Source: a candidate division FCPU426 bacterium
GTDB taxonomy: Bacteria > Oederibacteriota > Muellerivitia > Muellerivitales > Muellerivitaceae
NCBI GenBank assembly: GCA_030041545.1
Contig: JASHNQ010000076.1
Location: 1-64,000, forward strand
Length of the DNA stretch: 64,000 bases
Direction: 5' to 3'
Each line of letters opens with the position of its first letter. Positions within the stretch are counted from its first letter, which is position 1. Position numbers and translations under genes: made by a program. Below, piece after piece: positions 34,335 to 51,155 of this stretch. The notes under the pieces are model-generated. The model worked only from the letters and a program-made list of their open reading frames with translations. It was not told where the DNA came from and made no database searches.

Positions 34335-34838
34335 TCCTTCAAGCGAATGGGAGATTTTGCGCTGGGAATCGCCGGCGGAACTATGACTTTGGCAAAGCAA
34401 AGATTAAATCTTATTCTGTCCCGTTCCATCTTCGCTTATTACGGCCTCATCCGTCCCGCTCGGCCGCTCCCCTCGCTTTCCTTCATTATGGCTCGGGGCC
34501 TGGGCAGGCTCCTGGTTCCTCCCGCCGCGTCCGTCCGGTTCCCTACTTTTATCTCCCCATCCTTGCCTCCATGCCGCGCGATTTAAAAAAACATCCAACA
34601 CGAAGAGACGAAGACGTAAAGGACGGCAAAAGGACATTTTTTGAAAAAAATTAAGAAATGGGGCCTTGTTTCTTTTCTTCGTGGCTTTGTGGCTTCGCAT
34701 TGGTTGTGGGTTTGCCAGCCTGAACAGGTACGTTCCTTCAAATTTTAATCCCATTTTATCCCATGCATCTGTGGCAATAGCCTTTGCTTTGTGAAGCACA
34801 TAGTTCCGATCGCCGGCATACTTTCCGTTGTCCCACGG
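34335..34838. other. 500-bp gene-free spacer with repeat traces
   Basis: No convincing gene lies between the convergent GT-C and OmpA-fusion genes. At 34598-34700 there is a diverged CACGAAGAGACGAAG ... CTTCGTGGCTTTGTGG pair, of a type common between genes in environmental genomes, separated by an A/T-rich core. The minus-strand ORF across it has composition like a random frame. No terminator with a clear T-run was found. Confidence 0.45.
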
Positions 34839-37001
34839 TCAAGGAGCCGTCTGGGGCGCGGGGGCCGCGGGCACCTGGGCGGAGGGTTGGCCGGGCTGGG
34901 GCGGAAGGGCCGGCAGCGCGGGGTTGCCGGAAGGAGCGGCGCCGGAAACCGGCGCGGCCGGGGCCGGGGCGGCCTGCGGTGAGCCTGCCTGCCCTGAGCT
35001 TGTCGAAGGGGTCAAACCCGCCTGCGGCGCGTACTGTTGCATCCATTGCCTCAAACCAGGGTTGTTGGGATTGTACTTCAAGGACAGGAGATAGGCTTGG
35101 ACGGCCTGGGCCTTGCCGCCCAGCCTCAGGTAGCAGTCCCCGGCCAGTTGGTAGGCCTTGGCGTTGCGGCTGTCGGACTGGAGGGCCTTGAGGAAGCGGT
35201 CCAAGGCCTCGCGGTAATTGCCTTCCTTGAACATGTCCACGCCGTCCTCGATCAAGTAGGTGGCCGTGGCGTCCATGACGCCGGACACCACCAGCTCCAC
35301 GCGCCGGTTCTTGGCCCGGCCTTCCTTGGTGGCGTTGGAGGCGATGGGCCGGGTGTCGCCGTAACCCACTACGCTGAGCTTGGAGGGGTCCAGGCCGTTT
35401 TGGACCAGGTAGGCCTCCACCGCCTGGGCGCGGGCCAGGGAAAGCGCCTGGTTGTCCTTGAACTTGGAGCCGGCGCCCAGTTTTTGGTTGTCGGTGTGCC
35501 CGGCGATGATGATGACGCTGTCCGGGTAACGGCGCCGGATAGCCTCGGCCGCCTTCTGGATGGCCTCATAGCCGCGGGGCTGCAGTTCGGCCTTGCCGGA
35601 GTCGAACAGCAAATCCCCGGGGACTTGGAAGGTGTACTGGTAGGGCACCCGCTTGGGGACCCACTTGGCGTAGGTCTGGGTCGGGCGGGACGCGCCCTTC
35701 ATCTCGTTGTCGTCGGTGACCTCCAGGTTGAAGGTATAGTTGCCCTGGGGCACCAGCTCTCCGTCCTGGTCGCGTCCGTCCCACAGGAAACGGGCGGGCG
35801 GGTTTCCCTTTCCCGGGAAGGACCTCACCAGCCCGCCGTTGGAATCCAGGATGGTGATTTTGTAGTTGACGATGGGCTCCTCGCTCTGGGTGACGAAGTT
35901 CACCCCCACCGCCTGCTGGCCCAAAATAAAGGCGGGGTAGGCCGTGGCGTAGGCCTGGGGCCGGGCCATGGCCCCCCCAATGATCACGCTCAGGGAAATG
36001 CGGTTCGTGTCGCCCAGGATCCCGTAGGGGGCGTAGGCGTAGTCCAACTGCGCGTCGAAGTCGTCGAACCGGTGGCCGATGCCCGCACCGGCGGTCAACC
36101 CCTCCAGGGTGGCGTCGTCGCTGTACCCCAGCCTCAGGAAGACGTCGTTGCGGCCGAAGCTCATGCGGTACTCGTCCCCCGCCCCCAGGGTGAACCCGGT
36201 GTCGCTCTGCAGGTCGATGTCGGCGGCGAGGATGTCCTGGTCCTTTTTCATCAGCAGGTCGTGCAGCCAGTAGGAGCCGCCGAATTTGCCCATGAGGGGC
36301 TGGCTGAAATCCTGGATTTGGGTGCCCGCGTTCATCAGCACCGCGCCAAGGTAGAAGGTCTTGCGGGTGACCTCGTAAAGGAGGCCCAGGTTGAACGCCG
36401 CGCCCGCGTTGCCGATGTTGACCAGGTTCTGGCCCACCACCGTGGCGCTGACGCCCGCCATGAGCCTTTTAAAGAAGTTTCCCGGGATCCAGTTCCCCAG
36501 GCGCTGGGCGTAGGCCACCGATCCCGCGAAGTCGTTGGCGCTGATGGTGGGGCCCACTCCCCCGTAGGTGCCGTCGGGGTTTTCCAGGGCGCCGGGGAAG
36601 GAACCGCTGTCCAGGTAGCTGAAGCTTCCCCCGAAGGCCCCGTCCTTGTCGATGTTCTGGCTGAAGGAGAAAAACTCGCTGGTGACGCCTAAAAGCCACT
36701 GCCCCTCCGTAAGGGAAAACTCCGTGCCCCGGGCCAATACCAGGCCCGCCGGGTTCCAGAAAACCGCCGTGGAGTCGTCCGAAACCGCCGTGAAGCTGTT
36801 GCCCATGCCCGCGGCCCGGGCCCCCATGCCGATTTTCTGGAAATTGGTGCTGGTGCTGCCAGCGCCCGAAACCTCCTGGGCCGGGACCCGCGCCACCGTA
36901 AAAAACAACAAGAGGAAGGCTGAAACCAAAAAGTTAAAAAGCGGAAAAGCGGGACGGAAGGGCCGGAAAGGATGGGCACCGAGCGCGGTATTTCTTATCA
37001 A
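34839..37001 (-). CDS. PorV-like barrel fused to FlgD-like, OmpA and TPR domains
   Basis: A 720-residue outer-membrane protein. Order: signal peptide ending VARVPAQ (about 1-42); PorV/UPF0164-type barrel (about 50-350; starts FQKIGMGARAAGMGNSFTAV, then AVFWNPAGL); an Ig-like segment of the FlgD kind (about 370-435; FLWDGRDQDGELVPQGNYTF); OmpA peptidoglycan-binding domain (about 450-570; IIIAGHTDNQKLGAG, VGYGDTRPIASNATKEGRAKNRRVEL); TPRs (about 580-655); a Pro/Ala tail. PorV proteins handle type 9 secretion substrates in Bacteroidetes. Residues about 661-675 (GLTPSTSSGQAGS) come from a dispersed repeat. The start TTG 37001 is uncertain. Confidence 0.8.
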   Translation of the reverse strand: MIRNTALGAHPFRPFRPAFPLFNFLVSAFLLLFFTVARVPAQEVSGAGSTSTNFQKIGMGARAAGMGNSFTAVSDDSTAVFWNPAGLVLARGTEFSLTEGQWLLGVTSEFFSFSQNIDKDGAFGGSFSYLDSGSFPGALENPDGTYGGVGPTISANDFAGSVAYAQRLGNWIPGNFFKRLMAGVSATVVGQNLVNIGNAGAAFNLGLLYEVTRKTFYLGAVLMNAGTQIQDFSQPLMGKFGGSYWLHDLLMKKDQDILAADIDLQSDTGFTLGAGDEYRMSFGRNDVFLRLGYSDDATLEGLTAGAGIGHRFDDFDAQLDYAYAPYGILGDTNRISLSVIIGGAMARPQAYATAYPAFILGQQAVGVNFVTQSEEPIVNYKITILDSNGGLVRSFPGKGNPPARFLWDGRDQDGELVPQGNYTFNLEVTDDNEMKGASRPTQTYAKWVPKRVPYQYTFQVPGDLLFDSGKAELQPRGYEAIQKAAEAIRRRYPDSVIIIAGHTDNQKLGAGSKFKDNQALSLARAQAVEAYLVQNGLDPSKLSVVGYGDTRPIASNATKEGRAKNRRVELVVSGVMDATATYLIEDGVDMFKEGNYREALDRFLKALQSDSRNAKAYQLAGDCYLRLGGKAQAVQAYLLSLKYNPNNPGLRQWMQQYAPQAGLTPSTSSGQAGSPQAAPAPAAPVSGAAPSGNPALPALPPQPGQPSAQVPAAPAPQTAP
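34976..35021. repeat. Dispersed repeat inserted in frame in the OmpA fusion
   Basis: CTGCGGTGAGCCTGCCTGCC followed by CTGAGCTTGTCGAAGGGGTC is the same element as at 664-725 in alr. It encodes the peptide LTPSTSSGQAGS in the linker between the TPRs and the Pro/Ala tail. Confidence 0.8.
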
Positions 37002-37167: not shown

Positions 37168-38100
37168 TCATCGGACCAGCAGGATTCTTGCGGTATGTTC
37201 ACCGAGGGGTTCCATTAAGTAAAGGATGTACACCCCGCTGGCGCAGGTGTCGCCGTACTTGTTCTTCCCATCCCAGCTGTACCACTGGCTCACCGGGCCT
37301 GACAAGGGCCGGTCATCAAGGGTTTTAATGTGCTCCCCCGCGGAGTTGTAGATCCGCAGGGCATATTGGCCCGGATAAACCGTGTAATTCACGTAAATGG
37401 AAACGGGATTGGAGGGACTGAAGGCGTTTTTGGAGACGTAAAAAATGTCGGCGGTGTAAGGCGTCGGGGTGGGGGTGCAGGTGTTGCCCGGAAAACCGCA
37501 AGGCGTATCGGTGATGGTGGGCGTGAAGGTGGAGGTGGGTGTGCCGGTGGGGCTCGCGGTGAAGGTCGGCGTCGGGGTCAAGGTAATCGTCGGCGTTGCC
37601 GAAGGGACGGGCGTCAAGGTGAAAGTAGGCGTTGCGGTGGGCGTGCTGGTTGTGCAGTTGACGGTGAAAGGAAGGGGACTCAAGTTGATGACCGTCTGGG
37701 GCGAGCTTATATCGACGGAAGACAGGTTCGATCCCGAGGTCGTGGCGCAGGAACTGACCGTGAAAAAGACCGTCACGGTATCCGAGGTGCCGGAGGGCAC
37801 GTTTCCCAAATTCCAAACCACTTCTTGGCCATTATTGGAGCAGGAAGCGCCGCTACAGCTGGTGAAGGTGAAATCGGTTGGAAGGGTATCGACGATGCTG
37901 ACTTGGCCATAGGTGCTTCCGGTATTATTGTCGATGTTAATGGTAACGGAATAAGAATCGCCCAAAATCAATTGGGCCTGAGCCCGCGCCGCGCCCCAAG
38001 CCGCGAAAAAAAGGAAACCCGAAACCAAAATGACTTTTTGGATAACGCGGCCGTCCTGCTTTGGAAAAGCTTCTAAAGGCCGGGAAAGAAAAAACCCCAT
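37168..38100 (-). CDS. Secreted modular protein 1: DUF11-like + PT linker + C-module A
   Basis: A 310-residue protein. Signal peptide ([19 protein letters not shown], to about residue 40); a DUF11-like domain (about 42-145; [39 protein letters not shown]); a Pro-Thr linker of about 70 residues; then C-module A (about 218-310; DIFYVSKNAFSPSNPVSIYV, then a segment ending GVYILYLMEP and a final ILLVR), a FlgD-like Ig fold resembling sorting domains. It probably acts at the cell surface. The N-module recurs in protein 4 and the C-module in proteins 3 and 6. Confidence 0.75.
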   Translation of the reverse strand: MGFFLSRPLEAFPKQDGRVIQKVILVSGFLFFAAWGAARAQAQLILGDSYSVTINIDNNTGSTYGQVSIVDTLPTDFTFTSCSGASCSNNGQEVVWNLGNVPSGTSDTVTVFFTVSSCATTSGSNLSSVDISSPQTVINLSPLPFTVNCTTSTPTATPTFTLTPVPSATPTITLTPTPTFTASPTGTPTSTFTPTITDTPCGFPGNTCTPTPTPYTADIFYVSKNAFSPSNPVSIYVNYTVYPGQYALRIYNSAGEHIKTLDDRPLSGPVSQWYSWDGKNKYGDTCASGVYILYLMEPLGEHTARILLVR

Positions 38101-38130
38101 TTTTCAACCTGTCTCGTTTCATTAGCTGAC

Positions 38131-38178
38131 CCCGCCAAATAAACGCCGGGTAACACCAAACAAAATTTTATCACACGC
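38131..38178 (-). promoter_or_regulatory. Conserved leader of secreted protein 1
   Basis: The block CCCGCCAAATAAACGCCGGG ... AAATTTTATCACACGC (plus-strand view) lies 31-78 bases upstream of the ATG. It matches the leader of secreted protein 4 at 42900-42948 in sequence, spacing and position. It could hold the promoter and a regulatory structure, or be carried along by duplication of the 5' half. Confidence 0.4.
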
Positions 38179-38371
38179 GGCTCAAAAACAGCCTTTTCGG
38201 CTGCTTCGGGCCAAGAAAAGGAATGAGGGAGGACGCGGGCTTCCTCCGGCAAAATTTAACATGAGTGATGTCCAACCACATTACGTCCTTACAAGAATTC
38301 GACCAGGATTCATTGAACGATTTAAAAACCTGGAAAACCTTATTTTCGCTGTTTTTTTGATCCATGGGTCT

Positions 38372-40492
38372 TTACTGCCTCGCGACCAGCAGCTTCCCGG
38401 AAAGCAAGGTCGAGTTGCCGTTTTTGATGACGTAATAATAAACGCCCGCGGAGACCGGGACCCCGTTTTGGTTGGCGCCGTACCAGTAGATATACCCGGA
38501 AGAATTGGGGGTGAGCTGGTCCACCATCTCCCCGGAAAGGGTATAAAGGCTCATGGTGGCGCCGGAAGGAACTTGGTAGGCCTTCAAGGCCCCTCCCACT
38601 GCGTATTGGGGGTTGAAGGGGTTGGGCCAAACGTGAAGCCCCGCGGGCGTGGGGGTGGATGTGGCGGTGGGTTGGGGTGTAGGGCTCGTGGAAGGAGTGG
38701 CGGTTGCGGTCGGGGTGGACATGGTGGCGGGCGTTGGGGTGCCGGCGGGGGTAAGGGTGGGGGTTAAGGTGGGCGTGGAAGTGGGAGTGGCGCTTCCGCA
38801 GGTCAAGGCGCCGGCCTGGTTGGTATTCATGAAGGTGCTCGCGTTCCACCCTCCCACCGAGTAAATCACGCCGTTCACCGTGTCCGCGCCTTGCGCCGAT
38901 TGGATGTCCGGCATGGCGGCGGGCGTGCTCCAGCTGTTGGTCGCCGGGTTATAGGCCTGGACCGCGCTCACCAGGCCCGGATAGGTCCCGTTCCCCGCGC
39001 CCCCCAGCACATACAACTGGCAGCCCAAAACCGCGCTTCCCGCCTCCATCATGGCCGTTGGCATGGCCGCCAGGCCCGAAGTCCAAGTGTTCGTGGCCGG
39101 GTTATAGGACTCCACCGTATTCACCGCCCCCACCGACGTCTGAAAGCTCGTGTTGGGGTCCCCCCCCGCCACGTAAATGATCCCGTTGACCGCCCCCCCC
39201 ATCAACTGGGAAAGGGCCGTGGGCATGGCCGCCAAGCCCGAAGTCCAAGTGTTCGTGGCCGGGTTGTAGGATTCCACCGTGGACTGCGGAGTGGCGCTGG
39301 CGTTATCACCCCCGAAAACGTAGATGATCCCGTTGACCACCGCCGACCCCATATTGGAGAACGCGGTGGGCATCGGCGCCATCTCGGTCCACGCGTTGGT
39401 CGCCGGGTTGTAGGCCTCCACATTGCTGAAGGTCGTGGTCAAGTTGTCCCCGCCGATGGCGTACAGGATTCCGTTCACGCTGTCCACCGTCAGGTCTTCC
39501 CGGCCCGTGGGCATCGTGGCCATCTCGCTCCAGGTATTCGTGGCCGGGTTGTAGGCCTCCACCGTTGTCAAGGCATTGCCCGAGTTGTTTTGACCTCCTA
39601 CCGCGTAAAGGATGCCGTTGACGTCCCCCAGCGCCAGGCGGTCCCGGGAGGTGGGCATGGTAGCCAGCTCGCTCCACGACAGGCTCCCCGACGGGCAACA
39701 AATGGGGGTGGGGCTGGGTGTATAGGTGGGTGTCGGAGTGATGGAAGGGGGGCAGGCGGAGGAACAAGGGCCTTCTCCGGCATTGGGATCCAGCGCACCG
39801 GAGCTGTTGAGGACTTCCTGCACTAATTGGCCGTTGTAAAGCATCACGAAATAGGGGCTGTCATACCAGCCGCTGCCCGGACAGCTGGCGCCGTTTCCAA
39901 TATGGCTGTAGTAATTGGCGATGGTGGTGGAACAGCTGTTCTCGCCCAAGTAAAGCTCATCGCTTTGGCCGATCCAATAACCGCCGTTGGCGGGTATCGT
40001 GGCGGGGCCGCTTCCGACGGTGGCGCCGGTGATGCAATAAGTGACGGCTTCGTTGGCCCAATGGACCGTGCCGTAGGAATCCGTCGCGCTGGGAGTGCAG
40101 GCCGCGATGGCCCCGATCGCCACCGAAGTGGTGGCGTTGACGTTGCCGACCTGGGCTCCGCCCGGCTGGTAGATGGCCCCAAATCCCCCTCCCCAACCGC
40201 TTAGGTTCATGGGATTGGAGCAGACGCTATACCCATAGAGGACGAAACAAATCCCTTGGAGGGAAACGGCGGTGGACCCGTAATTGGTGACCTGGACGTC
40301 GTATTGCTCCTCCTGTCCACTGACGGAATTGCATTGGACCTGGAGGTTCAACAGGGGCGTGGTGACGCCGCCGTTTCCACCTGCGCAGGTTGGGGTGGAA
40401 GTGGGAGTGTTGGTTGGGATTTGGGCGAAAAGCAAAATAGGAAAACCAAATAAGCCTGCTGTGAAGAATATTTTTTTTATTCTTTTTAGCAA
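38372..40492 (-). CDS. Secreted modular protein 2: Kelch-type propeller + PT linker + C-module B
   Basis: A 706-residue protein. Signal peptide (KKIFFTAGLFGFPILLFA), a short PT spacer, a domain of about 200 residues resembling a lamin-tail-like or carbohydrate-binding beta-sandwich (about 30-245), a second PT spacer, then a Kelch-type beta-propeller (about 270-570) with repeats of the form VEAYNPATNTWSEMATMPT and GILYAVGG. Next is a PT linker (about 575-615) and C-module B ([10 protein letters not shown] ... [20 protein letters not shown]). It starts at TTG 40492 with GGAG eight bases upstream. Likely surface-anchored or secreted adhesin or enzyme carrier. Confidence 0.75.
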   Translation of the reverse strand: MLKRIKKIFFTAGLFGFPILLFAQIPTNTPTSTPTCAGGNGGVTTPLLNLQVQCNSVSGQEEQYDVQVTNYGSTAVSLQGICFVLYGYSVCSNPMNLSGWGGGFGAIYQPGGAQVGNVNATTSVAIGAIAACTPSATDSYGTVHWANEAVTYCITGATVGSGPATIPANGGYWIGQSDELYLGENSCSTTIANYYSHIGNGASCPGSGWYDSPYFVMLYNGQLVQEVLNSSGALDPNAGEGPCSSACPPSITPTPTYTPSPTPICCPSGSLSWSELATMPTSRDRLALGDVNGILYAVGGQNNSGNALTTVEAYNPATNTWSEMATMPTGREDLTVDSVNGILYAIGGDNLTTTFSNVEAYNPATNAWTEMAPMPTAFSNMGSAVVNGIIYVFGGDNASATPQSTVESYNPATNTWTSGLAAMPTALSQLMGGAVNGIIYVAGGDPNTSFQTSVGAVNTVESYNPATNTWTSGLAAMPTAMMEAGSAVLGCQLYVLGGAGNGTYPGLVSAVQAYNPATNSWSTPAAMPDIQSAQGADTVNGVIYSVGGWNASTFMNTNQAGALTCGSATPTSTPTLTPTLTPAGTPTPATMSTPTATATPSTSPTPQPTATSTPTPAGLHVWPNPFNPQYAVGGALKAYQVPSGATMSLYTLSGEMVDQLTPNSSGYIYWYGANQNGVPVSAGVYYYVIKNGNSTLLSGKLLVARQ

Positions 40493-40550
40493 CCTGGATA
40501 CTCCACAAATTAAAAACGTTTTAAGTCAAAAAACAACAACTCGATTAGCT

Positions 40551-40585
40551 ATCACAAAAATACCGCATATAATGCGGAATTTCAC
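40551..40585 (-). promoter_or_regulatory. Conserved hairpin leader of secreted protein 2
   Basis: Plus-strand ATCACAAAAATACCGCATATA... carries CCGCAT-TAT-ATGCGG, a perfect hairpin, flanked by CAC-AAAAATA and AATTTCAC. The same frame of bases with a diverged hairpin lies at 45648-45683 before secreted protein 5. It is 59-93 bases upstream of the start codon. TTGACA lies just upstream on the minus strand (40597-40602). Confidence 0.45.
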
Positions 40586-40642
40586 CTTAAAGTTGTCAAG
40601 AAAAGGATTTTGAGGAGGCGCTTTTTTGAACCGGTTCCACGG

Positions 40643-41848
40643 TCAGCGGACCAGCAGTATTCTGTTTATTTTTTCGCTGAGGGGTTCCATTAAGTAAAGG
40701 ATGTATACCCCGCTGGCGCAGGTGTCGCCGTACTTGTTCTTCCCATCCCAGCTGTACCACTGGCTCACCGGGCCTGACAAAGGCCGGTCATCAAGGGTTT
40801 TAATGTGCTCCCCCGCGGAGTTGTAGATCCGCAGGGCATATTGGCCCGGATAAACCGTGTAATTCACGTAAATGGAAACGGGATTGGAGGGATTGAAGAC
40901 GTTTTTGGAGACGTAAAAAATGTCTTCGTTAGGGGGTGTCGGCGTGGGGGTGCAGGTGTCGCCCGGGTAACCGCAGGGCGTCTCGGTTGGGGTGGGCGTG
41001 AAGGTGGAAGTGGGCGTGGAAGTGGGTGTGCCCGTGGAGGTCGCCGTAAAGGTCGCCGTCGGGGTGAAGGTGGCCGTCGGAGTTGGAGTGGCGGTGGGAG
41101 TGGAGGTATTCGTGGACGTGAACGTGATCGTGGCCGTGAAGGTGGGGGTGGGGGTTGGCGTAGTGGTAGTGCAGGCCACCGTATAAGAAAGCGTATAGTT
41201 GACGCCCTGCGAGTCGCCATACTGATTCCCGTCCTCAATGGCCAAGATGTCGCTTCCAGCGTTAAAGTCGGAGGCTGGAACCGTAAAGGATAGGCAGGTA
41301 CTCCAAGTTACGTTGGGCACGCTAATGGAATTTCCATTGACGAAAACGCTCATGGGTTCACCGTCTTGGTTCCCATCGTCCGCGGCGATCGTTAAAGTGG
41401 CATTGGTGACGACGGCGCCGGCGGGCAGGCTGAAATATTCAAGGTAATAATAATTTCCGCTGCCGGCGGCGACGGAACCTGAGCCAGTGGTAGAGGAAAT
41501 CCAATAGGGGGTCACGCCCGAACCCGCGATACTGCAAGCCGCCGTCCATCCGGGGTTGAGTGGGTTCACGGTCACGGCTTGGGACCATCCGCTGGCCGTT
41601 GCGCTGTTATAGCCCGCGGAATTCCAGGCGTTGCCGCTGCCGTCAGGGCCCGGCGTCACCGCGGAATTGGGGAAAATAAGGTTTGTCGTATCGCTGACAA
41701 TATAAAAAGTCGATCCGCATGTGGACGTGCTCGTAGGGGTATTGGCTTGGGCGAAGGAGAGGACGGGAAACAATAAAAACGCGGAAATGAACGGTATCGG
41801 TTTAATCAAGGCTTGATATGGAAAGTCCTTAATCTTTTTTTGCTTCAT
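40643..41848 (-). CDS. Secreted modular protein 3: beta-sandwich + PT linker + C-module A
   Basis: About 401 residues. Signal peptide (IPFISAFLLFPVLSFA), short PT spacer, a beta-rich domain (about 40-225; YLEYFSLPAGAVVTNATLTI, DDGNQDGEPMSVFVNGNSI) that reads like a jelly-roll ligand-binding fold, a PT linker of about 90 residues, then C-module A, almost base-for-base identical to that of protein 1. I chose ATG 41848 because GGAG lies 10 bases upstream; GTG 41860 is an alternative. The 3' flank beyond the stop is also shared with protein 1, so the copied unit includes downstream sequence. Confidence 0.72.
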   Translation of the reverse strand: MKQKKIKDFPYQALIKPIPFISAFLLFPVLSFAQANTPTSTSTCGSTFYIVSDTTNLIFPNSAVTPGPDGSGNAWNSAGYNSATASGWSQAVTVNPLNPGWTAACSIAGSGVTPYWISSTTGSGSVAAGSGNYYYLEYFSLPAGAVVTNATLTIAADDGNQDGEPMSVFVNGNSISVPNVTWSTCLSFTVPASDFNAGSDILAIEDGNQYGDSQGVNYTLSYTVACTTTTPTPTPTFTATITFTSTNTSTPTATPTPTATFTPTATFTATSTGTPTSTPTSTFTPTPTETPCGYPGDTCTPTPTPPNEDIFYVSKNVFNPSNPVSIYVNYTVYPGQYALRIYNSAGEHIKTLDDRPLSGPVSQWYSWDGKNKYGDTCASGVYILYLMEPLSEKINRILLVR

Positions 41849-41940
41849 ATTCCATTTCACTCCATAAAAAAGCTAAAAATATGCGGTTACACGCAAAAAC
41901 ACGTAAAACAAAAAGACTCAACGCCGATCCCATCGAAAAT

Positions 41941-42873
41941 TCATGGGCTCCTTACCACCATTATTTTTCCTGAAAGCAGGGTGGAGTTCCCGTTTTGGAT
42001 GACGTAATAGTAAATTCCAGCGGAGACCGGTACGCCGCTTTGGTTGGCGCCGTACCAGTAGATATAGCCGGAGGCATTCGGGGTGAGTTGGTCCACCAGC
42101 TCCCCGGAAAGGGTGTATAGGCTCATGCTGGCGCTGAGGGGCACCTGGTAGGCCTTCAAGGCCGGCTGGCCGTTGACCGGCACGGCGTACTTGGGGTTGA
42201 AGGGGTTGGGCCAAACGTGGAGCGGCACGAGGGTGGCCGTGGGGGTGGGAGTCACGGTGGGGGTGAAGGTATTCGTGGGCGTGAAGGTGATCGTGGGAGT
42301 AAAGGTGGGGGTAGGGGTAAAGGTGATGGTAGGTGTAGAAGTAGGGGTGGAAGTAACCGTTGGTGTAAAAGTGACCGTCGGGGTAAAGGTCATAGTCGGA
42401 GTCAAGGTGATCGTGGGCGTGTCGGTGGCGCAATCGACGGTGAAAGGTAGTGGATTCACGCCTATCACCGTCTGGGGCGAGCCCACATCGATGGAAGATA
42501 GATTCGTTACCGAAGCCGAGGCGCAGGAGCTGACGGTGAAAAAGACCGTCACGGTATCCGACGTGCCGACGGGCACGGTTCCCAAATTCCAAACCACTTC
42601 CTGGCCATTATTGGAGCAAGGGGCGCCGGTGCAGCCGTTGAAGGTGAAATCGGCTGGAAGGGTGTCCACCACGGAAACTTGGCTGTACGTGGTTACCGAA
42701 TTGTTGTAATTGATCGTGATGCCTAAGGATTCACCCAAGGTCAGTTGGGTCTGGGCTCTCGCCGGGCCCCAAGCCGCGAAAAAAAGGAACCCCAAAGCCC
42801 AAATGATTTTTTGAATGACGCGGCCATTGCATTGGGGGGAAGTCCCGGTCGTTCGATGAGAAAAAAATTTCAT
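41941..42873 (-). CDS. Secreted modular protein 4: DUF11-like + PT linker + C-module B
   Basis: A 310-residue protein. Signal peptide ([19 protein letters not shown]), DUF11-like domain closely matching protein 1 ([39 protein letters not shown]), a PT linker of about 70 residues made of TPTxTFTPT units, and C-module B ([20 protein letters not shown] ... [20 protein letters not shown]). It thus combines the N-module of protein 1 with the C-module of proteins 2 and 5. The C-module has a small insert (VPVNGQPA) relative to the others. Confidence 0.75.
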
Positions 42874-43137
42874 TTTTCAACCTAAATTTAATAAGGAGTC
42901 CCGCCAATAAAGACGCCGGGGAGTTTTGGGTGAAATTTTATCACACGCAACTTAATTAAGGGTTTTGTACGGGAGCCGGCCGTGGGGGGTTACGGAAATG
43001 GGTTTTCTTTTCAGGATTTAACATTCAACCGGGCAGAAAATGCCGATGAAGCCGTCAGGCCGGGTGGATAGGACCGCCTTTTTAAAAGTTGGAATCCACG
43101 CAAGAGGGATGAGACTGTGGAAAGTGGATGGGAAAGC
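42874..43137. promoter_or_regulatory. Spacer with the conserved leader of secreted protein 4
   Basis: The block at 42900-42948 (CCCGCCAATAAAGACGCCGGG ... AAATTTTATCACACGC) matches the leader at 38131-38178. The rest, to the stop of protein 5, shows no gene or clear terminator. Confidence 0.4.
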
Positions 43138-45576
43138 TTACTGATTCCTCAAGACCAGTATCTTCCCGGATAGCAGGGTCGAGTTGCCGTTCTTAATAAC
43201 GTAATAGTAAATGCCGGCCGCAACCGGCGCGCCGTTGGAGTTGGCGCCGTTCCAAGTAATATAACCGCTGGTGTTGGCCGTCAAGGCAGGGTTGACTACC
43301 GCTTCCCCGGAAAGCGTGTAAATGCCCATGGTGGCGCCCGGGGGCGCCTGATAGGCCTTCAAGACTCCTCCCACCGCGTATTGGGGATTGAAAGGATTGG
43401 GCCAAACGTGCAGCCCCACGGGCGTCGGGGTAAAAGTGGCGGTGGGTTGGGGCGTGGAGGTGATGGTGGGAGTGAGTGTATTGGTAGGGGTCCCAGTGGG
43501 TGTAGATGTCGGAGGGAGAGTTCCGGTTGAAGTCGGTGTGAATGTTGGAGTGATTGTGGGTGTGTTAGTTGGGGTGCCGGTGATGACGCAAGTTACAGCC
43601 AAGGTAACGGGATTGGAAGTCGTGGGTGTTATGTTATTGGCGCTGGCGGTGAATTGGTTGGTAATGGGCCCGGGGCAGGCAACAATTCCCCACCAAGAAA
43701 CGGGGCATTGGTCGGTCACCGCGGCCGCGTAGTTCCAAACCAAAGGCCCGTTGGGCGCGCCGGAAGTCGGGAGGGGGCTGGCGCCCGAGTAAGTGACTCC
43801 GGTCGGAATGGGGTCGGTAATCGTGGCATTCACCACCGACCCGCCGCTATAAACCTGAAGATTGGCGAAATAATCTGTCTGGGTGGTTGTATACGCCTGC
43901 CAACCCTGTAACCAGCCGCAGGAACATCCTGTAATAGTCCCGGGGTTATTAGGCGCTCCGTTATACAAAGTATAATCGGAAGCATTATTGGGATCGACGT
44001 AAACGAAGGTAGCCGCGTCCGCAGGAATTCCCTTGGGCCAAAGTATGGCGGTGTAAGTGATGGGTCCATTTCCCGAAAATTGGACATTCACGTTCACCGT
44101 ATACCAATTTCCAATGATGATGGGATCTTGATTGCCGTCACCACCGGGGTTAACAGCGGTAGGAAATAAGGGGAGGTTATTGGTTCCCATGGGCGATGGA
44201 TAAATATCGGGGTTATAATTTTGGTTTTTTTGAAAGTAAAAATAATCCGGAGTGTTGTTTCCGGATATGGCGGCAACCATGGTGACTCCCTGCGATGGAT
44301 TCACCGCTACAACCATGGCGCAATCCCCGTCGCTCGCGCCCTGCGCCGTTACAGGAATTTGCAAGTCTCCCTGAACCGTAAATCCGCTGCAAATATTAAC
44401 CCCCGGCCCGGTTCGGATCAGCGCCGGATAGTCTTGGGAAACCCCGCCACTACTGTAATACTCAGTGTTGCCGATAATAAAATCGTTACCTTGTGAAACC
44501 GCCACCTGCCAGGTCCCCAGGTCCCCATCCACTGCCGCGTATTGTGTATAAGGCGTTCCATCAAACCCCGTGATCGCAGCGTTGGCCAAACCCGTTTCAT
44601 TGTAGTAGGAATCGTAAAGTTGAAGGTTATCGCCGATCGTATCCCAATTCAGCGTGTAGGTGACGCTGCTACCGGCGGCCAAGCTCGAGGCGGACTCGCT
44701 TTTGATCAAACCGAGTTGGGGTTCCTGAACCGTCACATTCGCCGGGCCCAACGAACTGCTACAGCCCGTGCCGCTGAGAGTTGCGGAATTCGGAATAACG
44801 GTTCCAGCCGTTACCCCTGGGTTGACGCTCAGCAGGGCCCAGGCCACACTTGTTACGGGTTGTGAAACAGTGCCAATATTCCAGGTGACGTTGGTGGCGG
44901 TTGTAACGGCATTAGGACCCGCGCCTTTGAGGGTGACATTAGCCGGAAGGTTATAAACAATGGTGCTGGCGCCGGTATTCGTGAAGATGTAATTCACGTC
45001 GAATAAATAAAGCCCACCTGGAGAGGCCGTCACCCCGGCTGTCGCGACGGATCCAGAGCAACTTGGCGGAGGCGGCGGGATGGTGAAAGTCACGGCTATT
45101 TGACTGTTAATTTGGAGGCTGTTGCAGCCTATATAATTCGCCGCTCCAGCTACGATATACGTGTAAGTCGCCCCTTGCGATAAGCTGTTGGGAACGGTGG
45201 TGTTCCAAACAACTTGTTGGGTTGTCGGGCAAGTGGTAACCCCGTTATTTTGTGGGGTGCCGCCGTTCCATCCGCCGCTCGGGGCCGTATCCGTTTGGTT
45301 TGTTCCATTACTATCCACCGTAAAAATCTGGCCGGTCGCTGGGCAGGTTTGGACCGTGGCCGCTTGATTGATCACCCCAAAAAAGTAGGAGCTGTCGTAG
45401 TAACTGGACGCGCAATAGGTAAAAGTCACCGACAGGGCTGAACCCAAGGTGGGATTGGTATTGGATAATTCAACGGATTCAATCGTCACCGTTTGGGCCA
45501 TGGGAAGGGAGGGACAGCCGAACGCCAAAATGAGGAGGAAGAACCTACTAAAACATATTTTTTTCACGGTTCTCAT
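43138..45576 (-). CDS. Secreted modular protein 5: multi-domain DUF11-like + PT linker + C-module B
   Basis: An 812-residue protein, the largest of the set. Signal peptide (FFLLILAFGCPSLPMA), an N-terminal beta domain (about 28-170), a DUF11-like domain (about 185-280; YLFDVNYIFTNTGASTIVYN), a middle region of about 300 residues that reads like a LamG/DUF1080-type sandwich (YFYFQKNQNYNPDIYPSPMG), a further DUF11-like piece (NATITDPIPTGVTYSGASPL), the PT linker and C-module B ending LLSGKILVLRNQ. Likely exposed on the surface. No catalytic motif recognised. Confidence 0.72.
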   Translation of the reverse strand: MRTVKKICFSRFFLLILAFGCPSLPMAQTVTIESVELSNTNPTLGSALSVTFTYCASSYYDSSYFFGVINQAATVQTCPATGQIFTVDSNGTNQTDTAPSGGWNGGTPQNNGVTTCPTTQQVVWNTTVPNSLSQGATYTYIVAGAANYIGCNSLQINSQIAVTFTIPPPPPSCSGSVATAGVTASPGGLYLFDVNYIFTNTGASTIVYNLPANVTLKGAGPNAVTTATNVTWNIGTVSQPVTSVAWALLSVNPGVTAGTVIPNSATLSGTGCSSSLGPANVTVQEPQLGLIKSESASSLAAGSSVTYTLNWDTIGDNLQLYDSYYNETGLANAAITGFDGTPYTQYAAVDGDLGTWQVAVSQGNDFIIGNTEYYSSGGVSQDYPALIRTGPGVNICSGFTVQGDLQIPVTAQGASDGDCAMVVAVNPSQGVTMVAAISGNNTPDYFYFQKNQNYNPDIYPSPMGTNNLPLFPTAVNPGGDGNQDPIIIGNWYTVNVNVQFSGNGPITYTAILWPKGIPADAATFVYVDPNNASDYTLYNGAPNNPGTITGCSCGWLQGWQAYTTTQTDYFANLQVYSGGSVVNATITDPIPTGVTYSGASPLPTSGAPNGPLVWNYAAAVTDQCPVSWWGIVACPGPITNQFTASANNITPTTSNPVTLAVTCVITGTPTNTPTITPTFTPTSTGTLPPTSTPTGTPTNTLTPTITSTPQPTATFTPTPVGLHVWPNPFNPQYAVGGVLKAYQAPPGATMGIYTLSGEAVVNPALTANTSGYITWNGANSNGAPVAAGIYYYVIKNGNSTLLSGKILVLRNQ

Positions 45577-45647
45577 CAGCCCGCCGGTTTAAAACGTTAT
45601 TTGATCGCTTCGCAAAAAACCAGCTTCACCATTTTGCGATTTATTTA

Positions 45648-45683
45648 CACATTAAAAATATCGCATTTGGGGCGAAATTTCAC
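45648..45683 (-). promoter_or_regulatory. Conserved leader of secreted protein 5
   Basis: Plus-strand CACATTAAAAATATCGCATT, then GGGGCGAAATTTCAC, aligns with 40551-40585 before secreted protein 2 (CAC-AAAAATA-YCGCAT-GCG-AATTTCAC). It lies 72-107 bases upstream of the ATG. Confidence 0.4.
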
Positions 45684-45756
45684 TCCAATATAAGTTTTAA
45701 GAGGGATGGAATTATCAGGAGGAATTTTCGGGAGCGCTTTTTCGGCCTTTTTCGGC

Positions 45757-46998
45757 CTACCGGATCAATACGACCCTTCTCATCTTTTGGCTGAAAGGCT
45801 CCACCAAATAGATGATATAAACCCCGCTGGCGCAGGGGTCGCCGTACTCGTTCTTCCCGTCCCAGCTATACCATTGGCTGACGGGTTCGGAAAGGGTCCT
45901 GGAATCCAGCGTTTTGATGTGCTCCCCGGCCGTGTTGTAGATCCAAAGGTCGTACTGCCCCGGATAGGTGGTGTAATCGACGAGGATCGAGACCGGGTTG
46001 GCGGGGCCGAAGGCGTTCTTGGAGACGTAAAAGACGTCCGCGTAAACGGGCGTGGGGGTGATGGTGGGAGTCGAAGTGGGAGTGCAGGTGTTTCCCGGAT
46101 AACCGCAGGGAGTCTCGGTGGCGGTGGCGGTGACCGTAGGGGTGGGGGTGGGGGAGGAGGTTGGCGTGGCCGTGGGACCGCTGGAAAAGCTCCCGGCCTG
46201 GATGAAAACATTCGAATCAAGGTTGCAATCCCCGACGTCGCAAATGGCCAGTTCCATGGTGTTCGTCACCCCGGCGTTGACCGGGGCGTTCACCGTCAAG
46301 ACGGTGGTCAAGCCGGTCATGGTGGTGTTCAAATTCGCCGAGGGAAAGTCGAGGATGCAGGATCCCAGGGTGGTGGGTTGGTTATTGTTGTTGATGTAAT
46401 AGGAAGAATTGGCGCAGGCATTGACGTTATTGACGTCGATAATGGTGGAAGTCCCCGGGAGCACCGCCACATCGTCCGCCGGCGCGTTTCCATTGAGGAA
46501 AAAGGCGAAAACGTCGTTGTATTCCGAGCCGACGTATTGGTTGTATTCGGAGGAGGCGAAAACATACTGGAAGGTGATGTTGTTGAAATCCGGCACAAAA
46601 TCGAAGGAAAGGATGGTGACGTCGTAAATATCGGTAGCGGCCACCCCGGCCAGGTTGGCCAGCTCTTGGTTTTCCTCCGGATTCGGATTGTTGCAATTGC
46701 TGGTTCCACTGCCGCTGGGACCCACCACGCTGGCCGCGTTCCCATTGCTGAGGATAATGCCGGAATTAAACCCGATAACGCCGTTGCCTCCCGTGAAAGT
46801 TCCCGAGGACCACGCTGTTCCGGTATAGCTGACGTTGAAGTAATTGACGCCCAAACCCATGAGGTTTTGGACCAAAGCCGAGGGGGCGGTTGGTTGGTTC
46901 CCCAGGATCGCGACGGAAAGGTTTTGGGCCCAAACCCCGCCGCATAAAGGCAGCAAAGCCCCTGCCGCGAGGAGGCGTTTAAAGGAACCTCTTTTCAT
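45757..46998 (-). CDS. Secreted modular protein 6: choice-of-anchor L domain + PT linker + C-module A
   Basis: A 413-residue protein. Signal peptide (RLLAAGALLPLCGGVWA), then a choice-of-anchor L domain (about 25-275) recognised by ILSFDFVPDFNNITFQYVFA, SSEYNQYVGSEYNDVFAFFL and the later VLPGTSTIIDVNNVN. A PT linker follows, then a diverged C-module A (DVFYVSKNAFGPANPVSILV ... GVYIIYLVEP). Choice-of-anchor domains occur on proteins fixed to the surface by varied C-terminal anchors, which fits the modular theme. ATG 46998 is preceded by AAGGGAAA. Confidence 0.78.
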   Translation of the reverse strand: MKRGSFKRLLAAGALLPLCGGVWAQNLSVAILGNQPTAPSALVQNLMGLGVNYFNVSYTGTAWSSGTFTGGNGVIGFNSGIILSNGNAASVVGPSGSGTSNCNNPNPEENQELANLAGVAATDIYDVTILSFDFVPDFNNITFQYVFASSEYNQYVGSEYNDVFAFFLNGNAPADDVAVLPGTSTIIDVNNVNACANSSYYINNNNQPTTLGSCILDFPSANLNTTMTGLTTVLTVNAPVNAGVTNTMELAICDVGDCNLDSNVFIQAGSFSSGPTATPTSSPTPTPTVTATATETPCGYPGNTCTPTSTPTITPTPVYADVFYVSKNAFGPANPVSILVDYTTYPGQYDLWIYNTAGEHIKTLDSRTLSEPVSQWYSWDGKNEYGDPCASGVYIIYLVEPFSQKMRRVVLIR

Positions 46999-47080: not shown

Positions 47081-47232
47081 GAGAGTGTTGAAAAACCCAT
47101 CTTCGATGGGATTTCTCAACGGCACCTTCAAGGTAACCCCACGATTTCCTGCGGAAATCTTTAGGGTCGAGTCTGTTGCAAGGTCGCTTTATGTCCCTGG
47201 AACTCTGTTCCATGGACTTTTTCAACAGTCTC
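47081..47232. mobile_element. MITE-like TTGAAAAA element
   Basis: Imperfect terminal inverted repeats of about 20 bases: GAGAGTGTTGAAAAACCCAT (47081-47100) and, inverted, GAGACTGTTGAAAAAGTCCA at the right end (to 47232). The left end forms its own hairpin (GTTGAAAAACCCATC/GATGGGATTTCTCAAC). The interior has no gene. A partial copy lies in the GT-C gene. Confidence 0.6.
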
Positions 47233-47501
47233 AGATTTACAGTAATTTTATCCCTTTTCGCCCGGTTGTCGCGTCCCTTGGCGGGCCAATTTGGACCTTT
47301 TGGAGGAATTCCTCACTTTTCCCCCTAACCTAATTACGAACAGAAACCAAACAAAAGACATTACGTTCGTATTAGCTCCGCTCTTGAGGGGAAACCCCTC
47401 TCCCCATTACCCCCTCAGCTTCGCTCGTAGGGGAAAAGCCCCCTACGTTACCCCGCCCAACTTCCAAGGGGGGCCAAGCCCCCCTTGAACCCCGGGGCGG
47501 G

Positions 47502-47628: not shown

Positions 47629-49044
47629 TTAAATATCGTGGTACAGCACGAATTCATACGGATGGGGCCGCAGGCGGATGGCGTCGATCTCCTTGCTCCG
47701 CTTGTAGCTGAGCCATTCGCTGATCAAGTCCTCGGTGAAGACCCCGCCCTTCATCAGGAACTCGTGGTCGTCCTCCAGGGCGTCCAGGGCCTCGTTCAGG
47801 GAGCCGGGCACGCTCTTGATCTTCTTCAACTCGCGTCCCTCCAGCTCGTAGAGGTTCATGTCGTGCGGCTTGCCCGGGTCGATCTTGTTCTCGATGCCGT
47901 CCAGTCCCGCCATCAGCATGGCCGCGAAAGCCAGGTAGGGGTTGCAGGACGGGTCCGGCGTGCGGAACTCGACCCGCTTGGCCTTCGGGCTCTTGGAGTA
48001 CAGCGGGATGCGGCAGGCCGCCGAGCGGTTGCGCTGGCTGTACACCAGGTTGACCGGCGCCTCGAATCCGGGGGTGAGGCGCTTGTAGCTGTTGACCGTG
48101 GGGCAGATGAAGGCGCAAAGGGCCGGGGCGTGCTTGAGGAGGCCGCCGATGTAGTAAAGGCCGGCCTGGGAGAAGCCCCCGTAGCCCTTCTCGTCGTACA
48201 TCACGTTGGTGTTGCCCTTCCAGATGGACTGGTGCACGTGCATGCCGCTGCCGTTGTCGCCGAAGAGCGGCTTGGGCATGAAGGTGGCCACCATGTTGTG
48301 GCGGCGCGCCACGTTCTTCACGATGTACTTGTACTTCAGGAGCTTGTCGGCCATGTTGACCATGGTGTCGAAAACCATGTCGATCTCGGCCTGCCCGCCC
48401 GTGGCCACCTCATGGTGGTGAGTCTCGATGGGGATGCCCACTTCCTGCATGAGGGTCACCATCTCGGAGCGGATGTCCATTTGGCTGTCCGTGGGCGGCA
48501 CCGGGAAATAGCCTTCCTTATTGCGCACCTTGTAGGCCAGGTTCGGGTACTCGTCGCGGCCCGTGTTCCAGAGGCCCTCGGTAGAGTCCACCGAGTAGTA
48601 GCCGCTGTTCATGGTCTGGTCGAACTTCATGTCGTTGAAGATGAAGAACTCGGCCTCCGGGCCCCAATAGCAGGTATCCGCGATGCCGGTGGACTTCAGG
48701 TATTTCTCGGCCTTTTGGGCCACATAACGCGGGTCGCGGGAGTAGGATTCCCGGGTGACCGGATCAATCACATTGCAGGTCAGGACCAATGTGGTTGCCT
48801 CGAAAAAGGGATCGATGAAGGCGCTGGCCGGGTCGGGGATCAACAGCATGTCGGATTCGTTGATGGCCTGGAACCCGCGGATGGAGGAACCGTCGAACCC
48901 CTTGCCGTCCTTGAAGGTGTCCTCCTCAAAGAACTTCACCGGCGAGGTGGTGTGCTGCCAGATGCCCGGCATGTCGATGAAGCGGAAGTCCACGTATTTC
49001 ACGTCTTTTTGCTTGATCAAATCCATCACTTCTTTCGCCGTCAT
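47629..49044 (-). CDS. glnA: Glutamine synthetase, type I
   Basis: Cytoplasmic dodecameric enzyme making glutamine from glutamate, ammonia and ATP. From ATG 49044 (AGGAGG seven bases upstream) it has 471 residues, the usual GSI length. Motifs: FDGSSIRGF, the metal site [43 protein letters not shown] and the C-terminal NLYEL whose Tyr is the adenylylation site, so GSI-beta-type covalent control is possible. The frame is open upstream to 49140 with a very basic 32-residue stretch. A sigma-54 promoter lies at 49318-49333 and a NifA-like gene is next upstream. Confidence 0.96.
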
Positions 49045-49140
49045 TCCTTGCCTCCTGATCAGTTTTTTCGCTTCCTTGCGGCCTCGTCGAACGACCTTTT
49101 TCGCGGTTTTTTTGCGCCCCTTATTCTTTTTCTTCCGCAT
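49045..49140 (-). other. In-frame basic extension or leader peptide before glnA
   Basis: Starting at ATG 49140, 32 codons run into glnA without a stop and encode a peptide in which more than half of the residues are Lys or Arg ([16 protein letters not shown]...). It lies downstream of the sigma-54 promoter and so would be transcribed. The strong ribosome site directly before ATG 49044 argues for initiation there; the upstream ATG has only a weak site. Confidence 0.35.

Positions 49141-49577: not shown

Positions 49578-51155
<1,578 letters not shown>

Follow-up and report, generated by a model that had tools for sequence, protein, structure and literature searches.

An array of putative type IX-like cargo genes in candidate phylum FCPU426 with re-paired N- and C-terminal modules

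Modular cargo is a general feature of the type IX secretion system (T9SS) in Bacteroidota, and PorE (PG1058) of P. gingivalis has an OmpA/TPR make-up. PorE is an outer-membrane, peptidoglycan-binding protein required for one class of cargo, PorZ and PorU bear type A C-terminal domains (CTDs) with a seven-stranded Ig-like fold, and CTD proteins and T9SS are given as restricted to Bacteroidota in a 2023 review (PMC10202324; for the restriction also PMC4793230). Recombination that exchanges modules between genes can diversify type IX cargo, as described for the gingipains and haemagglutinins of P. gingivalis, in the rearrangement of which the adhesin domains vary and the C-terminal domain, according to that account, is conserved (PMC5266723).

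The locus described here belongs to a little-known soil bacterium of candidate phylum FCPU426 (genome G000; 3.8 Mb in 115 contigs), and lies within a window of 64,000 nucleotides, this being the whole stretch of DNA that was analysed. Our reading of this locus, to which a probability of about 0.72 is assigned, is that it represents an array of T9SS-like cargo genes which evolve by recombination in their linkers and whose products take a SprA/PorV secretion route. The array (37168-46998) contains six complete open reading frames, all on the minus strand and named from low to high coordinate (Table 1), each of which specifies one or more secreted N-modules, one or more Thr-Pro linkers, and a C-module of type A (g1, g3 and g6) or type B (g2, g4 and g5). 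Transcription proceeds from g6A to g1A and then to the gene for a PorV-OmpA fusion, with intergenic gaps of 80-271 bp, and signal-peptide-like N-termini, as judged by eye, are present in all six proteins. An initial annotation of this DNA had described six consecutive minus-strand genes with different N-domains joined through Thr-Pro linkers to one of two C-modules in the order A, B, A, B, B, A, which is confirmed by the reading frames and by the identities between C-modules. The N-domains that it listed were retrieved as DUF11 in g1 and g4, Kelch in g2 and choice-of-anchor L in g6, but g2 is itself a multi-domain protein, as is g5, while the N-parts of g3 and g5 have no Pfam match. The DUF11 domain does occur once with tail A and once with tail B as annotated, g1 and g4 being 80% identical at the nucleotide level over 417 nt. 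What the annotation had missed are the T9SS-like nature of the tails, the PorV-OmpA neighbour, and a conserved frame including glnA and a sigma54 regulator.

Table 1. Coordinates, within the window, of the array genes, their recombinant parts, the flanking genes and the dispersed elements.
Feature	Position	Strand	Description
Short dispersed repeats	34483..34653		Between PorV-OmpA gene and convergent neighbour
PorV-OmpA gene	34839..37001	-	Downstream end of array; candidate receptor/anchor
Palindrome-like element	34993..35008		CCTGAGCTTGTCGAAG, in frame within C-terminal tail of PorV-OmpA gene
g1A	37168..38100	-	Signal peptide, DUF11 (Pfam), Thr-Pro linker with CGFPGNTC loop, module A
g1A module A tract	37228..37452	-	219/225 nt identical to g3A
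g1A linker	37453..37644	-	Best match changes here from g4B (N side) to g3A (C side)
g2B	38372..40492	-	N-part, linker, Kelch propeller (Pfam), linker, module B
g3A	40643..41860	-	N-domain, linker, module A
g3A module A tract	40703..40927	-	Partner of g1A near-identity tract
g3A linker	40928..41161	-	Mosaic: 5' part g4B-like (83-88%), 3' part g1A-like (75-85%)
g4B	41941..42873	-	Signal peptide, DUF11 (Pfam), linker, module B
g5B	43138..45576	-	Long multi-domain N-part, linker, module B
g6A	45757..46998	-	Choice-of-anchor L (E 3e-63), linker with CGYPGNTC loop, module A
Dispersed intergenic repeat	47085..47233		About 150 bp, upstream of g6A
glnA	47629..49140	-	Upstream border of array in most relatives
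GAF / sigma54 activator / Fis-type HTH regulator	49578..51155	-	Outer border of frame

An Rfam scan of the 64-kb window gave no match, and the repeat upstream of g6A accordingly belongs to no Rfam family; full or partial copies of it, 86-94% identical, are present at other sites of the genome and also in further genera of the family. The short repeats downstream of the PorV-OmpA gene (57-94 bp, 96-98% identical) are also found on contigs C109, C68, C84 and C69, and short matches to the stretch around the palindrome-like element recur on other contigs.

The C-modules correspond to the last 88-94 residues of each protein and are of two kinds, with amino acid identities of 73-93% within A (g1, g3, g6) and of 66-79% within B (g2, g4, g5); in a tree of 86 C-modules from eight genomes, A and B form two separate groups, each of which is fully supported. 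Against the sorting-domain model TIGR04183 (cut-off 23), module B scores 23.5 in g5, 21.7 in g2 and 20.7 in g4, module A scores 13.4 or has no match, and 13 of the 15 matches found genome-wide reach the cut-off; the score with the Pfam model Por_Secre_tail (PF18962) is 13.5 versus a cut-off of 27. The nearest Pfam family of module A is FlgD_ig (PF13860; E about 2e-4, under the curated cut-off). In a profile search, PorZ of P. gingivalis was matched by B with an E value of 7.6e-6 and by A with 0.0036, in the latter case behind FlgD, the best sequence match of A (7e-5). AlphaFold models of both tails (pLDDT 96 each) show a C-terminal Ig-like fold, with seven strands in A and six strands of at least three residues in B, and the first PDB match of both models is a PorZ entry (E 9e-5 for B and 3.2e-4 for A), followed for B by the T9SS substrate NucA. 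The fold match of A is less specific, with Ig-like domains of glycosidases and C5a peptidases close behind PorZ. Modules A and B are in consequence described as Ig-like domains closest to the C-terminal sorting domains of T9SS, B being the clearer case, and most likely they would act as an export or anchoring tag. Weaker tails of the same general kind are present on further proteins of the same genome.

The FlgD match of module A, the resemblance of its fold to Ig-like domains of glycosidases and C5a peptidases, and the fact that only B nears the T9SS cut-offs would also be expected if A and B were structural Ig-like linkers or adhesion domains, spread by ordinary domain shuffling, rather than export tags. 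That reading is considered unlikely, given that the tails are strictly C-terminal in the carriers counted, that they follow very different N-domains, that PorZ of T9SS is the first fold match of both, and that genes for a candidate SprA-like translocon and for PorV are present.

A further feature associated with one of the tails is a Cys loop (C-G-[FY]-P-G-[ND]-T-C; for example residues 202-209 of g1A), which was found no more than 60 residues from the tail in 15 of 51 A carriers and in none of 36 B carriers. This loop (as C-x-[FYW]-P-x-N-T-C) was evaluated as a fossil of tail exchange and dropped: the B-tailed N1 protein of relative G003 retains it further upstream, and alignment revealed the same N-side loop in an A-tailed relative, so that it is a loop conserved on the N side in both and was not used as evidence of swapping.

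Concerning the secretion machinery, the PorV-OmpA protein combines a PorV/PorQ-family barrel with a FlgD_ig domain, an OmpA peptidoglycan-binding domain and TPRs; it scores 115.9 bits with the NCBIfam model PorV_fam (cut-off 90; E 2.8e-33), and 17.7 versus a cut-off of 27 with the T9SS-specific Pfam PorV model. An open reading frame of 2026 aa on contig C104 (about 89898-95975; L181) displays collinear matches to the SprA model (best E 1.8e-36), and a SprA-like protein of about 2000 aa is encoded in 17 of the 19 genomes of the phylum tested. Matches in the family lie under the curated cut-off of 200 bits, which is reached in two other FCPU426 genomes, and the protein of the array-bearing genome, when searched alone, retrieved no significant Pfam or PDB match. 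No PorU-type C25 protease (PF01364) was matched in the eight family genomes by a search that did find one in genome G009, matches to the PorU model NF033707 in the family proved to be tail regions and not protease, and a search for GldM (TIGR03517) gave no match, nor did any control match. Since C25 was not found, the SprA-like protein scores under the cut-off and, searched by itself, has no significant Pfam or PDB relative, and GldM gave no match, the system is named type IX-like and is not filed as T9SS. A more far-reaching proposal, which is put forward tentatively and is rather doubtful, is that FCPU426 employs a reduced type IX-like route consisting of SprA and PorV-OmpA fusions without PorU, where A and B would operate in parallel and exchange of tails at the linkers would re-route a binding module between two outer-membrane receptors or modes of anchoring.

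The N- and C-halves of the array genes were compared separately, this having been set beforehand as the refuting test of the annotated swapping, and their histories are not congruent. The C-module of g4B is closest to that of its counterpart in congener G002 (85.2%), while its N-module is 75.7% identical to that of g1A versus 58.2% to that of the G002 counterpart. The tail of g2B is closest by nucleotide identity to that of g4B (82.4%), and its Kelch DNA has two counterparts of about 81% identity, bearing other tails, on contig C79 of this genome. An L-type lectin gene of G002, designated xA, possesses an A tail closest to that of g6A in G000 (90.2%). One group of the tail tree (support 98) comprises the B tails of g2, g4 and g5, those of the g5-position genes of G001, G002, G003 and G005, and the tail on the PorV side of the G007 locus; the N-modules of these genes differ. 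Swapping is real, halves with different histories having been re-paired, and new array genes appear to draw their tails from the locus itself. As an additional observation, contig C79 (52001-90000; L141 and L142), on which the Kelch proteins with other tails are encoded, carries two further PorV-family/TPR genes, one of which (L142, 3038-4642) directly adjoins a Kelch gene with another tail.

The positions at which the halves were joined were located by sliding comparison: g1A resembles g4B through most of its N-half (73-92%) and g3A through most of its C-half and C-module (94-100%), with the switch falling in the linker, and the linker of g3A is first g4B-like (88% and 83%) and then g1A-like. 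The breakpoints of re-pairing thus lie in the linkers, and together with the discordance of g4B and the mosaic nature of g1A they bear out the initial annotation's claim of swapped halves. That annotation had also proposed the linker DNA as a natural crossover site, which is valid for some pairs only: Smith-Waterman scores of 69 for g1/g3 and 55 for g3/g4 exceed the maxima of 24.5 and 22.5 obtained with 200 codon-shuffled linkers (0/200), but several other pairs are no more similar than such shuffles. Long exact stretches common to linkers were also considered as crossover seeds and set aside, as at 10-18 nt they are mostly within what codon shuffling yields.

The relative timing of one such event can be estimated from the first 225 nt of the tail, where g1 and g3 are identical at 219 positions (97%; 6 differences) and g1A and its G002 counterpart at 202 (90%; 23 differences; Fisher p 0.0017). 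Over the whole module, 4 synonymous codon differences separate g1 from g3, versus 14 between g1 and the G002 counterpart; the divergence between G000 and G002 is 9% for porV and 7% for glnA. This tract is therefore younger than the split from the congener. Past it, identity between the g1 and g3 tails falls to 46/57, which is more suggestive of a conversion tract than of a copy of the entire gene, and we infer recent gene conversion or duplication.

Comparison of the locus across relatives, as the initial annotation had suggested, revealed that its architecture is not identical, in that a frame is kept and the cargo changes between species. The order of the frame is sigma54 regulator, usually glnA, two to six cargo genes and PorV-OmpA; the PorV-OmpA gene is present in all eight family genomes and adjoins a cargo array in every relative with a readable neighbourhood. 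To the set g6A, g5B, g4B, g3A, g2B and g1A of G000 correspond, in the two genomes of the same genus, g6A, xA, g5B, g4B with an extra module, and g1A in G002 (locus over four contigs, on which no g2B or g3A was found), and g6A and g5B in G001 (two contigs). In the remaining relatives the cargo consists of g6A and g5B (1302 aa) in G005; of N1-B, N2-B and g5B in G003; of N2-B, N1-A, an IgGFc-binding-B gene, a g5-like gene cut by a contig end and a B tail before PorV in G007 (two contigs); and, in G006, of two B genes that adjoin the sigma54 regulator on one side and PorV on the other, glnA being absent. The locus of G004 is too fragmented to be read, and for loci broken by contig ends these gene lists are a minimum to which more genes may belong. 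N1 is thus combined with tail B in G003 and with tail A in G007 in the same glnA-side frame. The simplest history is that g5B and g6A are the oldest members, an old g6A-g5B pair of this part of the family having been followed by lineage-specific additions. In the g5B relative of G005 (L133:3955-7863), extra modules and linkers separate the N-part from the tail. Most of the named relatives retrieved with the PorV-OmpA protein bear the label candidate division FCPU426; JAJPJW010000073.1 (G001; Centralia_MAG_561) was deposited as Proteobacteria, yet it has the locus and groups with FCPU426 genomes.

A search for other carriers of A and B, likewise suggested by the annotation, showed that the eight family genomes together encode 87 strong carriers at about 60 places, 51 with tail A and 36 with tail B. 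Of the 12 N-families that have more than one member, 6 are combined with both tails, and the N-trees force at least two A/B changes in a g5-type set of 14, which comprises two deep subfamilies with both tails in each, and at least two in a seven-member set. One change suffices for the six-member G003 N-family, so that repeated swapping does not apply to every mixed family. Other loci are mixed in tails too, re-pairing not being confined to the array. Linkage of PorV to cargo was rejected as a general rule, a PorV gene being present in only 8 of 64 carrier loci, 7 of which represent this array (most of the stretches being short).

The initial annotation had viewed the locus as one that makes new surface proteins by recombination, of which the re-pairing stands and the notion of a special generator is not supported, considering that the tails occur at about 60 places and that neither recombinase nor cassette was found in the flanks examined. 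Repeated modules lying side by side, the recent g1/g3 tract, and the differences in gene content between species might all be produced by a dedicated locus for phase or antigenic variation, with fast, programmed switching of N- and C-halves, but this is very unlikely: a separate start and an entire N-part are present in every gene, many other loci show these tails and re-pairings as well, and the changes are at species or genus distance. No sign of such a fast generator was found; there is no recombinase or silent cassette among the open reading frames and flanking genes examined, and no invertible element was seen in the flanks examined, where inverted repeats were looked for unsystematically. 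Since these flanks hold no site-specific recombinase, silent copy or switch, the process is regarded as evolution over species time, and the best reading is that the array evolves slowly, by changes between species and genera, with the same process taking place elsewhere in these genomes.

Equally, little credence is given to old tandem duplications followed by ordinary divergence, with a single origin of the A/B alternation and simple inheritance thereafter; this would account for g5B and g6A having the same tails and positions in three genera-level lineages (G001, G002 and G005) and for the single change required in the six-member G003 N-family, and is contradicted by the discordance of g4B, by a g1/g3 tract that arose after the species had separated, by the breakpoints in linkers and by the changes forced in the two other N-trees. 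It is also highly improbable that linker and tail repeats caused wrong halves to be joined during assembly, even though these are metagenome-assembled genomes and contigs of G001 and G002 break off within linkers or tails of the array, because G002 has DUF11-A and DUF11-B on one independent contig, the contiguous loci of G003, G005 and G006 have the same tails with other N-modules, and the breakpoint paralogues are sufficiently diverged (about 6-25%) for collapse not to be expected.

According to the favoured reading of a recombining type IX-like cargo array, the products of the locus would be cell-surface cargo of a SprA/PorV route, each with one or more N-modules of a binding type. Tails A and B would guide these proteins through the SprA-like channel, after which PorV-type outer-membrane proteins, such as the adjoining PorV-OmpA fusion, would keep them at the surface, with the receptor attached to peptidoglycan through its OmpA part. 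Recombination in linkers, be it duplication, gene conversion or unequal crossing-over, would combine a tail of the locus with an N-module other than its own; the new pairings may result from homologous or unequal recombination within the repeated DNA of linkers and tails, and some of the N-modules taken up would also exist elsewhere in the genome. The array then constitutes a readable record of surface proteins gaining new heads and exchanging tails, and illustrates how the surface proteins of such bacteria may be rebuilt in the course of evolution. As natural N-twins that differ in their tails, g1A and g4B would allow a direct test of what tail A means versus tail B. With tail-like domains, a SprA-like protein and PorV-OmpA present together and PorU not found, the question of which machine parts are essential becomes a testable one.

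In the literature searched, the coverage of which is incomplete, no report of type IX parts in FCPU426/Goldbacteria was found, and as far as that literature goes the phylum, the PorV-OmpA frame, the apparent absence of PorU in the family and the repeated exchange of tail type are new. The array is like the cargo with T9SS type A sorting domains (TIGR04183 / PF18962) in having a C-terminal Ig-like tail, seven-stranded in T9SS, on many unrelated secreted proteins, and like T9SS in having a PorV-family outer-membrane protein at the array and a candidate SprA-like translocon in the genome. It differs from the T9SS of Bacteroidota in its FCPU426 host, in that no C25 sortase was found in the family, and in the fusion of PorV to OmpA and TPR, and from T9SS cargo in being an array with long Thr-Pro linkers and two tail types, one of which is FlgD-like. 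Module A does match the FlgD Ig-like domain (PF13860), but it has no flagellar hook-cap context and is terminal on secreted proteins. The OmpA and TPR parts of the PorV-OmpA protein are like those of PorE, whereas in FCPU426 they are fused to a PorV-family barrel. Finally, recombination of modules among cargo genes is common to the gingipains of P. gingivalis and to the FCPU426 array, but in the latter it is the tail type itself which changes, and it does so between species.
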